A DNA stretch of 64,000 nucleotides. Source: Cytobacillus firmus (GTDB lineage: Bacteria; Bacillota; Bacilli; Bacillales; Cytobacillaceae). A model generated the notes under the pieces. It was not told where the DNA came from, ran no database searches, and worked only from the letters and a program-made list of their open reading frames with translations. Made by a program: the position numbers and the translations under genes. Of the stretch, positions 203-10,126 are shown in pieces. The stretch's first letter is position 1, and every line of letters begins with the position of its first letter. The stretch is from the NCBI RefSeq assembly GCF_023612095.1, contig NZ_CP086235.1:2243501-2307500 (forward strand), read 5' to 3'.

Positions 203-1875
203 TTATATTTCAATTATGATCGGCAGGATCATTGGTTTGCGCTTTGTTTTTTCGAATAAAAACTGCCCAAGTGATTTCTTGATGCTCTGCTTGATGACAT
301 TCCACTGGCTTTTATCCTGCTCAGGAAGATCGTTGACAATTTTTTCTGCAATCCGGTTTATGTCTCTCAGCAGATCTTCGGATTCCCTTGCGTAAATAAA
401 GCCCCGGGATATAGTATCCGGCCTTGATATCATTTTGCGTTCACTCTTGCTCATGGTCAGTACGATCACAAGCATGCCATCCTCTGATAGCTGCTTCCTG
501 TCGCGGAGCACGATGCTGCCAATGTCCCCGACACCCACTCCATCCACATACGTATCTCCCGCAGGCACCCGCCTTGTCTGGCGTGCTTTTCCGTTTTCTA
601 TATCAACGACATCCCCATTTTTAATGATAAACGTGTTCCCTTTTTCAACACCGATCGATTCAGCAAGCAATTTATGGTGATGAAGCATTCTGTATTCACC
701 GTGAATGGGAATAAAATATTTCGGCTTCATCAATGTGAGCATAAGCTTTAAATCCTCCTGGTAGCCGTGGCCGGACACATGCATTCCCGTTGAGCTGCCT
801 GATCCGTAAATTACTCTGGCACCCAGTTTAAAGAGGTTATCAATGATTTTAGAAACATCACGCTCGTTGCCCGGGATTGGGAGGCAGCCAGAATCACGGT
901 ATCTTCAGGATGAATTTCAGCGTCACGGTAATTTCCGGAAGAAAGGCGTGAGAGGGCAGCCATCGGCTCACCCTGGCTGCCGGTACAAAGTATGCACACC
1001 TTTTCAGGAGCGAGATTCATCGCCTCTTTTGGGTTGATGATCATTCCCTCCGGTACGGTCAGATACCCGCGTTCAATGGCCACATTCACCACATTCACCA
1101 TGCTTCGGCCAAGCAGCACAAGCTTTCGGTTTGCTTTCATAGCTGCAGCCACGACCTGCTGGACCCGGCTCACATTGGAAGCGAAGGTGGAGATGATGAT
1201 TTTGCGGGGGGCTTTCATAAATGCTTCCTCAATGTTCTCCCCGACAATATGCTCGGTAGGCGAAAAGCCGGACCGCTCTGCGTTTGTGCTTTCTGAGAGA
1301 AGTGCGAGAACTCCTTCCCGCCCGATTTCAGCCATCCTGTGGATATCAGCATGCTCCTGGTTTACAGGTGTCAAATCAAATTTAAAGTCACCGGTATGGA
1401 CGACATTTCCCTCTGGTGTTTTAAACACAATTCCCAGACAGTCCGGGATGCTATGATTCACTTTAAAAAAGCTTACGCCTATTTCACCAAAATCAAGACT
1501 GGTATCAGAATCAATGGTGATCAGCTCAGAGTCACCAAGCAGGCGATGCTCCGATAGTTTTAGTTCTATGAGCCCCAGTGTAAATCTTGTTGCATACACA
1601 GGCATATTAATCTTTTTCAGGAGATAGGCAACCCCGCCGATGTGATCCTCATGTCCATGAGTGACAATCAGGCCTCGTATTTTTTCCCTGTTTTCTTCAA
1701 GGTAAGTAATATCCGGTATGATCAGATCAATCCCCAATAATGTTTCATCAGGAAATTTCCCTCCGGCGTCTATCACGACAATATCGTCATCATATTGAAT
1801 CACATACATGTTTTTCCCAATTTCATTGATGCCGCCAAGAGAAAAGAGGGATAACTGCTTTCCATTTGCCTCCAT
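203..1875 (-). pseudogene. RNase J-family ribonuclease, split by a single-base frameshift
   Basis: Metallo-beta-lactamase/beta-CASP ribonuclease of the RNase J family, which combines endo- and 5'-3' exonuclease activity in RNA decay. The N-terminal part (811-1875) has the Zn motif THGHEDH, the HTGDFKFD region and CTGSQGEP. The C-terminal part (203-784) has the SGHG and PIHGEYRM motifs and the KTKRKPMILPII ending typical of RNase J. The two parts are in different frames. Adding one base to the GGG run at 879-881 (plus strand) restores the expected SPIPGNERDVSK stretch and gives about 557 residues, the normal family length. Neighbours are unlike the B. subtilis rnjA or rnjB loci, so this may be an extra paralogue. 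All key residues are intact, so a sequencing error is as likely as a real mutation. Confidence 0.85.
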
Positions 1876-7579: not shown

Positions 7580-7603
7580 ACACGCTCACAGGCGTGTTTT
7601 TTT
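7579..7603. terminator. Terminator shared by convergent genes
   Basis: AACACGC / GCGTGTT with a 6-nt loop and a seven-T run, overlapping the stop codons of the toxin peptide (plus) and the redox lipoprotein (minus). Confidence 0.8.
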
Positions 7604-8096
7604 AATTGGAGAGTTCCTTTTTTAGATCTTCTGCAGTTGTATCAATTTCTTCTCCCCAATGGTCATTGACCTTGTTGAACACGATCTCGCCTTTCGTATT
7701 CATTACAGCATAGCCCCTGTAGGCAGTATCGCCATTTTTCATTCCGGCCTGTTCGATGAGCTTCATTTCCGGATCAGAAATAAACGGGAGGCTTTTCCCC
7801 ATCTTTTCTTCCAGAGCCTGATAAAGCTCTAGCTGCTGCTCAGGCTGATTATTGCTGACGATATACATATTGGCATCCAGATCTTCTAATTTATCCATAT
7901 TCTCATGCAGCTCGACCAGCTGCTGCTGACAGAGTCCTCAGGTGTATGTTGTGATAAAGAAGAAGACAGAGGGCTTGTCCTGCGGGAAGGCAACTTCATT
8001 GCCGCTTTGATCTTTTAACGCAATCGCTTGATCTTTGCCGCAGGCTGTCAGAACAAGAAGGACGATTGCTAATAGAATCATGAATTTTTTCTTCAT
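7602..8096 (-). CDS. Candidate selenoprotein: thioredoxin-fold (redoxin/AhpC-TSA-like) lipoprotein with UxxC motif
   Basis: Reading from ATG 8096 (GGAG site 6 nt upstream), the frame is open for 164 codons except for one TGA at 7938-7940. The N-terminus is a lipoprotein signal (hydrophobic core then LTAC, Cys19). Residues 43-56 read SVFFFITTYT-X-GLC, where X is the TGA. In redoxin-fold proteins this position is the first Cys of a CxxC motif, so decoding as selenocysteine gives U53-G-L-C56. The downstream part (LPFISDPEMKLIEQAG, then a NTKGEIVFNK strand) fits a peroxiredoxin/TlpA-like fold. A hairpin with a GGUCG loop starts 15 nt after the TGA. A nonsense mutation of Cys (TGC or TGT to TGA) is the alternative, but no other lesion is present. 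The sel genes are not in the window. Confidence 0.75.
7907..7923 (-). promoter_or_regulatory. Candidate bacterial SECIS element
   Basis: On the minus strand, GCAGCU - GGUCG - AGCUGC forms a perfect 6-bp stem with a 5-nt loop. Fourteen nt separate the UGA codon from the stem and 20 nt separate it from the loop. The E. coli fdhF SECIS has a short upper stem, a loop containing GGUC and similar spacing. The hairpin lies within the coding sequence, as bacterial SECIS elements do. Confidence 0.7.
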
Positions 8097-8192
8097 ATGA
8101 TCTCCATTTCCTTTTAGTTATTATCTTATCATTATGGCGCTCTTTTTCGTTTTTCTCAATAAAAATGCACGATTGAGCGGTTAATCAAAAAA

Positions 8193-8806: not shown

Positions 8807-8864
8807 TCAGGAAATTATCCTGAAACCGCTTTAAAATGGTTTGAGCATTACGAGGGGAAAAAGA

Positions 8865-10126
8865 GTGAAAAAGACAAAAAATCGGTGGCTGATTGCCGCC
8901 TCGGCCGTAGGGATTCATATCTCCATCGGTTCGGTTTACGCCTGGAGCAACTTTACCAATCCATTGATTGACCAGTTTGGCTGGACATCAAAGGAAGTAC
9001 AGCTGACTTTCAGTTTGGCGATTCTATTTCTGGGATTGTCAGCAGCATTTCTTGGCCACTTTGTTGAAAAGCACGGCCCAAAAAAGGCTGGTCTACTGGC
9101 AGCAGGATTTTTCGGTGCGGGCATGCTTGGAGCCGGATTAGCCGTAAATATGGGATCCTTGCCATTTTTGTACATAACTTACGGGGTACTGGGGGAATTG
9201 GTTTGGGAGTCGGCTATATTGCTCCGGTATCCACACTGGTAAAATGGTTCCCTGACCGCCGCGGATTTGCAACAGGTCTTGCCATCATGGGATTTGGCTT
9301 TGCTGCAGCGGTAGCGAGTCCGGTTATGGATGGATTAATTAAATCTGTTGGTACAGCAAACACATTCTTTATTTTAGGTGCTGCCTACTTGATCATTATG
9401 ACATTATCATCTTTATATCTAGAAAAACCGCCTGAAGGCTGGGCACCTGAAGGCATGAAGGAAAAAGCTGCAGCTGGAAAAATCAAAATTAAACAGGATT
9501 TAGCACAGTTAACGGCGAATGAAGCAGTAAAGACAACCCGATTCTATTATTTATGGTTCATGCTGTTCATTAATGTAACGTGCGGAATTGCAATTTTGTC
9601 TGCTGCAAAGCCGCTGGCACAGGAAAGCATAGGCCTGACAACGGCAGAAGCAGCTACGCTTGTCGGAGTGCTTGGCATCTTTAATGGACTTGGCCGTCTG
9701 GCATGGGCATCCATTTCTGATTATATTGGCCGCCCGAACACGTATACGATTTTCTTCGTATCACAGATCGCCCTATTCCTTTTGCTGCCGATCACAAAAG
9801 AAGCGATTCTATTCCAGATTATGCTTGCTGTTGTGTACACCATGTATGGCGGAGGATTCTCATCCATCCCGGCATTTATCGGCGACGTTTTTGGAACAAA
9901 GCAGCTTGGCGCCATTCATGGCTACATCCTTACAGCATGGGCAGCAGCAGGTCTTGCAGGCCCAATGTTTGCAGCATGGATGAAGGATTCAACTGGAAGC
10001 TATGCTTCAAGTCTGACAAGCTTTGCCGGACTTTTTGTAGTGGCACTCATTGTGTCAATCCTGATCCGTTTTGATATGAAAAAATTGCGCAGGCAAAATG
10101 AAGCAAATGAGCGTATAGCAAGTTAA
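8865..10126 (+). pseudogene. OFA-family (oxalate/formate antiporter-like) MFS transporter, frameshifted
   Basis: Twelve-helix MFS protein close to the intact gene at 43868-45130: both share NRWLIA-SAV, APVSTLVKWFPDRRG, KPPEGWAPEGM and FIGDLFGTKQLGAIHGY-type segments. The frame breaks at the five-G run 9191-9195. One extra G restores GGIGLGVGYIAPVS and gives 420 residues, exactly the length of the paralogue. GTG 8865, with GAGGGG 7 nt upstream, is the likely start. Location just before a formate dehydrogenase-like gene makes formate or oxalate a reasonable substrate guess. Assembly error is a likely cause of the break. Confidence 0.85.

Follow-up and report, generated by a model that had tools for sequence, protein, structure and literature searches.

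The 64,000-nucleotide stretch of DNA analysed here, referred to as the window, covers bases 2243501-2307500 of a 4.38-Mb Cytobacillus firmus genome held in a single contig, and carries on its minus strand, from 8096 to 7602, a gene for a putative selenolipoprotein that is interrupted by one in-frame TGA. Taking the evidence as a whole, we consider it very likely that this gene encodes a genuine selenoprotein, a lipoprotein of peroxiredoxin fold that would act as a redox protein on the outer face of the cytoplasmic membrane and, in part of its family, may have a role at copper centres. From the conservation of the TGA, a downstream hairpin under selection and the co-occurrence of the gene with tRNA-Sec, we infer with near certainty that UGA is read as selenocysteine (Sec) in the family, as a preliminary description made from the sequence alone had proposed; decoding in this particular isolate is highly probable, a figure that we have lowered because selB is split in the assembly. 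That the protein is a redox enzyme of the outer face is quite likely, and a partnership with a copper centre, to which nothing links the gene in the window's own genus, is put forward tentatively. The results computed here concern the TGA, the frame kept on both sides of it, the RNA element, the decoding genes, the predicted fold and the gene neighbours in relatives.

Reading frame and conservation of the TGA

With the TGA taken as a residue, the minus-strand frame 8096-7602 gives 164 residues and then a stop, and reads MKKKFMILLAIVLLVLTACGKDQ...SVFFFITTYT-U-GLCQQQLVELHEN..., to the stop. Its sole internal in-frame stop is the TGA at 7940-7938 (codon 53), in the context SVFFFITTYT-U-GLC; translation thus bears out the preliminary description, which gave no strand, both in its intact 164-codon gene broken by one TGA and in placing that TGA at the first position of X-G-L-C after SVFFFITTYT. 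The ribosome site and lipobox that it mentioned are likewise found: GGAG (8102-8105) lies 5 nucleotides (nt) upstream of the ATG, and the lipoprotein signal peptide (8040-8096) has the lipobox LTAC at residues 16-19, with the lipobox Cys in 62 of the 63 family members below 88% identity, so that Cys19 is expected from its motif to be lipidated. The redoxin-like sequence reported on both sides of the TGA is seen in Pfam matches that run across it, to AhpC-TSA (52.5 bits, cut-off 26) and Redoxin (40.3 bits, cut-off 26.6). The closest named record with the gene is NZ_MRTQ01000008.1, labelled Paenibacillus sp. FSL R5-0490 (93% identity in the best segment), followed by one of Cytobacillus firmus (88%).

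The gene is widely kept with its TGA. Thirty-three of 61 near relatives (own genome included) match it at 1e-10 or better and 32 hold the TGA gene; the match in genome G034 is a 34-residue fragment only. Across the order, 64 of 397 genomes from 27 genera match, and 66 of the 68 matches carry exactly one TGA; the two that lack it, a piece of a frameshifted copy in G010 and a remnant in G178, do not reach the TGA site. For column conservation and the ratio of nonsynonymous to synonymous substitution (dN/dS), 101 rows were reduced to 91 distinct genes, with L123 and L124 and without L033 (a frameshifted copy), L077, L080, L083 and L126; the TGA stands in the same alignment column in 91/91, and no second in-frame TGA occurs before the gene end. 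As 90 other distinct genes share this TGA, a read error at codon 53 is untenable and was rejected. Every relative that covers the site thus has Sec (TGA) there, so that the comparison of homologues, which had been named as a way to refute the proposal, came out in its favour. Invariant in all 63 sequences below 88% identity are Phe46, Thr49, residue 53, Cys56, Gln59, Leu60, Leu63, Ser81, Asp108, Arg127 and Gly128. Thr49 (7950-7952) is the T of a TxxU motif, Cys56 (7929-7931) is the C of the UxxC motif and likely the resolving thiol, and Arg127 (7716-7718) aligns with the conserved Arg of peroxiredoxins in an alignment with Prx1.

Under the standard code, the sole open reading frame (ORF) of at least 60 residues in the gene is a C-terminal one of 98 codons (7898-7602), and automated annotation had been predicted to call that fragment alone. 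This is what databases do: when 5.8 billion proteins were searched for matches to the window protein, 38 came up, and 29 of these are C-terminal fragments of 91-135 residues, including one that NCBI lists as 'MULTISPECIES: redoxin domain-containing protein [Bacillales]'. Such annotation, together with the degraded copies in G010, G178 and G034, would suit a UGA that is a true stop, leaving either a pseudogene or a short lipopeptide and a separately started C-terminal fragment. We find this scarcely credible. Pooled dN/dS over 16 genes of the window's genus is 0.146 upstream and 0.096 downstream of the TGA, active-site residues are kept on both sides, none of the 91 genes has a second in-frame TGA, and a fragment that lacks the opening strands of the fold would be no redoxin; a pseudogene was rejected on the conservation and these ratios.

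A form of the protein with Cys at the Sec position was not found in the close family, either by the single-sequence search or by a profile search of the same 5.8 billion proteins (53 matches, 28 inspected as sequences) with an alignment of 57 sequences drawn from the 63 below 88% identity; the other full-length matches are distant peroxiredoxins and similar redoxins, and the distant peroxiredoxins have Cys near the Sec position in alignment. The family may therefore exist only with Sec, which is our reading of searches of limited sensitivity; a thiol-redox family would usually have a Cys form as well. No match was found among 72,556 plasmid records. When 398 genomes of the phylum were searched with a profile, matches were confined to the window's genome and a second genome from its family; this search, with its strict limit of 1e-15 and few genomes of the order, says little on spread.

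Ten full-length database proteins (P0003-P0010, P0014, P0040) have Trp at the Sec site. If UGA were read as Trp or Cys by a near-cognate or suppressor tRNA, the product would be an ordinary redoxin made by read-through, and these entries would be its trace. These entries come from contigs of which the longest measure 712-1575 bases, and their Trp is most simply explained by translation table 4 having been used to call genes on contigs so short. At a UxxC redox site a Trp would serve no purpose, the gene tracks tRNA-Sec and the hairpin is under selection (see below), and we regard such read-through as very improbable. Apart from this question, table-4 switching by gene callers on selenoprotein genes may be one route by which selenoproteins are missed.

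The downstream hairpin and the selenocysteine machinery

The perfect 6-bp hairpin with loop GGUCG that had been noticed soon after the TGA lies at 7923-7907, with the loop at 7917-7913, 14 nt from TGA to stem and 20 nt from TGA to loop. Its stem is formed by the codons CAR-CTN-GTN-VAG-YTG downstream of the TGA, with GTN in 86 of 90 sequences. For this analysis 100 rows were reduced to 90 distinct sequences, without L077, L080 and L126 (not the gene, or the site uncovered) and without L123 and L124 (outside the automatic bounds). All five inner pairs are formed in 90/90, compared to a mean of 12.3 (sd 3.2, maximum 23 in 2000 draws) for random synonymous codons at family frequencies, and when one arm was moved by 1 to 4 bases no full stem was left; a chance hairpin was rejected on these two controls. 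Four of the six stem pairs are invariant and hence uninformative on their own. The silent pair between base 3 of the Gln codon and base 1 of the Leu codon is G-C in 45 sequences, A-U in 40, G-U in 5 and A-C in none, a pairing not reached in 5000 trials in which its partners were shuffled; the outer pair is G-C in 76, U-A in 8 and unpaired in 6. When clustered at 80% DNA identity, the sequences fall into 50 groups, in which the silent pair is seen as CAG/CTG in 24, CAA/TTG in 23 and CAG/TTG in 3, and parsimony needs 11 changes on each side, so that the pairing does not go back to one old event. The loop reads GGUCG in 27 of the 90 and GGUUC in 23. These compensatory changes across the family, with the inner stem intact throughout, support the suggestion that the hairpin is a selenocysteine insertion sequence (SECIS).

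The genome has a tRNA-Sec (59.7 bits, cut-off 47; called tRNA-SeC with anticodon tca by ARAGORN), a SelA of 467 bits in a single 465-residue frame, a SelD of 422 bits with one TGA, in KGGUGCKIGP, and a SelB winged-helix domain of 57.4 bits. Three of its 13 AhpC-TSA matches have a TGA, namely the selenolipoprotein and two genes outside the window, each with a possible hairpin after the TGA: L083, a candidate selenoprotein of AhpC-like peroxiredoxin type (TFVUPTE), and L086, a candidate selenoprotein with HLGUPVC that comes near a SelL-related model (93.5 bits, cut-off 120). Next after selD in its locus (L011, 1471-3494) comes the gene for an ABC substrate-binding protein of phosphonate/selenate type, which scores 221 bits with TIGR01098 and 177 bits with the putative selenate model TIGR04553 (cut-off 250) and is a candidate selenium importer.

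Across the order, tRNA-Sec is over cut-off in 179 of 397 genomes, 63 of which match the gene (G178 by its remnant only). Only matches over the cut-off were counted, as the tRNA-Sec model also gives matches below it in genomes without the system. Put the other way, tRNA-Sec is found in 63 of the 64 matching genomes and in 116 of the 333 without the gene (Fisher P 5e-24, with related genomes taken as independent), and among the 61 near relatives in 33/33 matching genomes, while 0/14 genomes without tRNA-Sec match at 1e-10. The remark that a selenolipoprotein would be unusual in Bacillaceae has to be corrected in the light of these counts; a 2006 survey of far fewer genomes lists, in the part of it available to us, 3 selenoproteins in Bacillales (PMC1794560). 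A search for SelA in 12 genomes gave eight matches above 469 bits, none in G014 and G022, and 21-24 bits in G015 and G036, which pass Pfam's low cut-off yet are no convincing SelA. Two tRNA-Sec genes over cut-off per genome are seen in the relatives G002, G003, G006, G009 and G023.

Several points weigh against reading the UGA as Sec. When a single sequence is folded, the hairpin does not stand out over 45 nt (z -0.24), and a stretch of 27 nt cut out by itself gives z -2.32; one sequence proves little, the support coming from the family. Our P values count related genomes as independent. Genome G068 has the TGA gene and no tRNA-Sec over cut-off; it does have a SelA of 475.7 bits and lies in 200 contigs, which makes an assembly gap at its tRNA-Sec likely. 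The selB gene of the window's genome is split into a 388-residue ORF (GTPase part) and an overlapping 254-codon open frame (winged-helix part), outside the window at L010 1492-3092 and L148 1991-3879; as cut in L010, the pieces score 197.8 and 36.7 bits against the selB model (whole-protein cut-off 242). The check for selA, selB, selC and selD that had been proposed thus finds the content of all these genes, with selB not in one frame in this assembly.

Two overlapping frames could mean that the selenoprotein family is real and SelB function has been lost in this isolate, where UGA would no longer be decoded. We regard this as improbable. Two genes of the window are split alike: that for RNase J1 (203-1875, minus strand; ORFs 811-1875 and 203-784, profile positions 3-325 and 356-548), which may be truly defective or wrongly assembled and whose loss is costly in B. 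subtilis, and that for an MFS transporter (OxlT-like by eye; 8841-10126, plus strand), split by a frame change into ORFs 8841-9242 and 9203-10126. We therefore suspect an assembly error in selB as well, the simpler reading given that selA, selC, selD and the TGA genes are all kept.

Gene neighbours and possible function

The predicted fold and the profile searches both have peroxiredoxins as their best matches, in line with the AhpC/TSA domain, and the peroxiredoxin hallmarks Thr (T49, three before the peroxidatic residue) and Arg (R127), which have an active-site role in that family, are kept in 63/63 sequences. Set against this, the Pro of the peroxiredoxin motif PxxxTxxC is not present; Phe46 is found there in 63/63.

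We suggest the following course for incorporation of selenium, chemistry and partner. The SelA/SelB/SelC/SelD system would decode UGA codon 53 as Sec, directed by the short downstream hairpin, and the protein would be exported, lipidated at Cys19 and anchored on the outer face of the cytoplasmic membrane. In a peroxiredoxin fold of PrxQ/AhpE type, the Sec53 selenolate, beside Thr49 and Arg127, might attack a peroxide or disulfide; Cys56, three residues on, would form a selenenylsulfide in resolving the product, and the enzyme would be recycled by a thiol donor on the same side of the membrane. Part of the family may serve CuA assembly of cytochrome c oxidase together with Sco, CtaG and YtkA/CtaK, which it might do by keeping partner thiols reduced or by clearing peroxide.

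The last step is suggested by gene neighbours, scanned at 121 loci, many with flanks of only 600 or 1500 bases, and sampled at 20 wide loci. In nine of the 20 (L128-L136; eight genera in four families), ctaG, sco and then the selenolipoprotein gene follow one another on one strand, with a YtkA-type lipoprotein gene between sco and the selenolipoprotein gene in two; Pfam scores on representatives are 181.5 bits for CtaG, 114 bits for Sco, and 34.9 and 83.7 bits for YtkA. At L143 a YtkA gene adjoins the selenolipoprotein gene. At L138 and L139, from one genus, a cupredoxin lipoprotein (31.0 bits, cut-off 27) is encoded directly 3' of it, in which CSIPCGNGHADM resembles what we take to be the motif of a CuA site. 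Over all loci, 40 of 121 have a copper-type neighbour; they come from 28 genomes, 15 with Sco directly upstream, 2 with YtkA directly upstream, another 1 with YtkA and 10 with a cupredoxin. The clusters at L128-L136 immediately precede an arginine-biosynthesis cluster (arg names by eye).

No copper neighbour is seen in eight of the 20 wide loci, nor in the window's genus within the flanks examined, where several neighbours are conserved (a GlpQ-like gene, an MFS transporter and a membrane protein, names partly by eye), none evidently linked. Along with the peroxiredoxin fold and its retained Thr and Arg, this would fit a plain selenoperoxidase of the outer face that removes environmental peroxide and has no part at copper centres, the copper neighbours being accidental in a few lineages; we give this a little less than an even chance, as an accident is hard to credit for three copper contexts in different families (CtaG-Sco with or without YtkA, YtkA alone, and cupredoxin).

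According to the available text of one account, caa3 assembly in B. subtilis has three proteins specific to it, namely Sco, Caa3_CtaG and CtaK (YtkA); TlpA, which B. subtilis lacks, keeps CuA thiols and Sco reduced elsewhere; and the reductant of CuA thiols in bacteria without TlpA is an open question (PMC9145763). A selenol reductase or peroxidase in TlpA's place is a natural guess by analogy. We would go as far as to speculate, doubtful as it is, that in bacilli with a CuA-type oxidase the reductant, or guard, still missing for the thiols of Sco and CuA might be a Sec-only branch of the peroxiredoxin fold anchored on the outer face of the membrane, in the role that TlpA has in Bradyrhizobium. 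Maturation of a respiratory oxidase would then depend partly on selenium, and the link to Sco, CtaG and YtkA/CtaK would bear on which protein reduces CuA thiols in bacteria without TlpA. It also matters that a selenoprotein family is held in the searched databases mostly as truncated fragments.

Comparison with known redox families

Neither the window protein nor P0003 is over the cut-off of any NCBIfam model. Two families of redoxin (seleno)proteins show weak similarity, and membership in both was rejected: SelL-related NF040769 (30.6 bits, cut-off 120) and the TUGYCR redoxin NF053656 (20.6 bits, cut-off 100). ResA and StoA models are outside the 14 families listed for the window protein, and reach 3/57 (ResA) and 1/57 (StoA) members at E values up to 1e-5. 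Compared to the E. coli fdhF SECIS, the hairpin is alike in being a stem-loop right after UGA with GGU in the loop, and differs in its shorter stem and in loop bases that vary within the family.

Selenoprotein kinds that combine PF00578 with UxxC are already known, as far as the accessible parts of these sources go (PMC13188914, PMC9312934, PMC1794560, PMC5029168, PMC1242214, PMC5322559). Closest in description are the Prx-like thiol:disulfide oxidoreductase selenoproteins (PF00578, UxxC/UxxU; PMC13188914), which share the PF00578 domain and UxxC; their known members, compared by description only, are from Geobacter and other anaerobes in the available text (PMC1794560), and in the present family no Cys form was found. 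The accessible form of a 2026 table of 119 prokaryotic selenoprotein families holds no entry that we could match to it (PMC13188914), and literature searches gave no title or abstract on the family, most subscription journals being outside their scope, so that an earlier description is possible. Judged by sequence, what would be new is a lipid-anchored family of which only the Sec form was found and which has a Cys at +3 and no peroxiredoxin Pro. The selenocysteine peroxiredoxins of PrxU/AhpC type (TxxU) have the same fold, TxxU and Arg, whereas the selenolipoprotein lacks the Pro of PxxxTxxU, has the extra Cys at +3 and is a lipoprotein; L083 is a separate PrxU/AhpC-like gene in the same genome.

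The comparison that bears on function is with TlpA of Bradyrhizobium, described in the accessible parts of two sources as a reductant of ScoI and subunit II (PMC6696091, PMC9145763). Both belong to the thioredoxin superfamily, are anchored in the membrane and have two redox residues separated by two positions, and in some lineages the selenolipoprotein gene adjoins sco. They differ in that the selenolipoprotein matches peroxiredoxins best and has Sec in place of Cys, and a like function would be its own by inference only.
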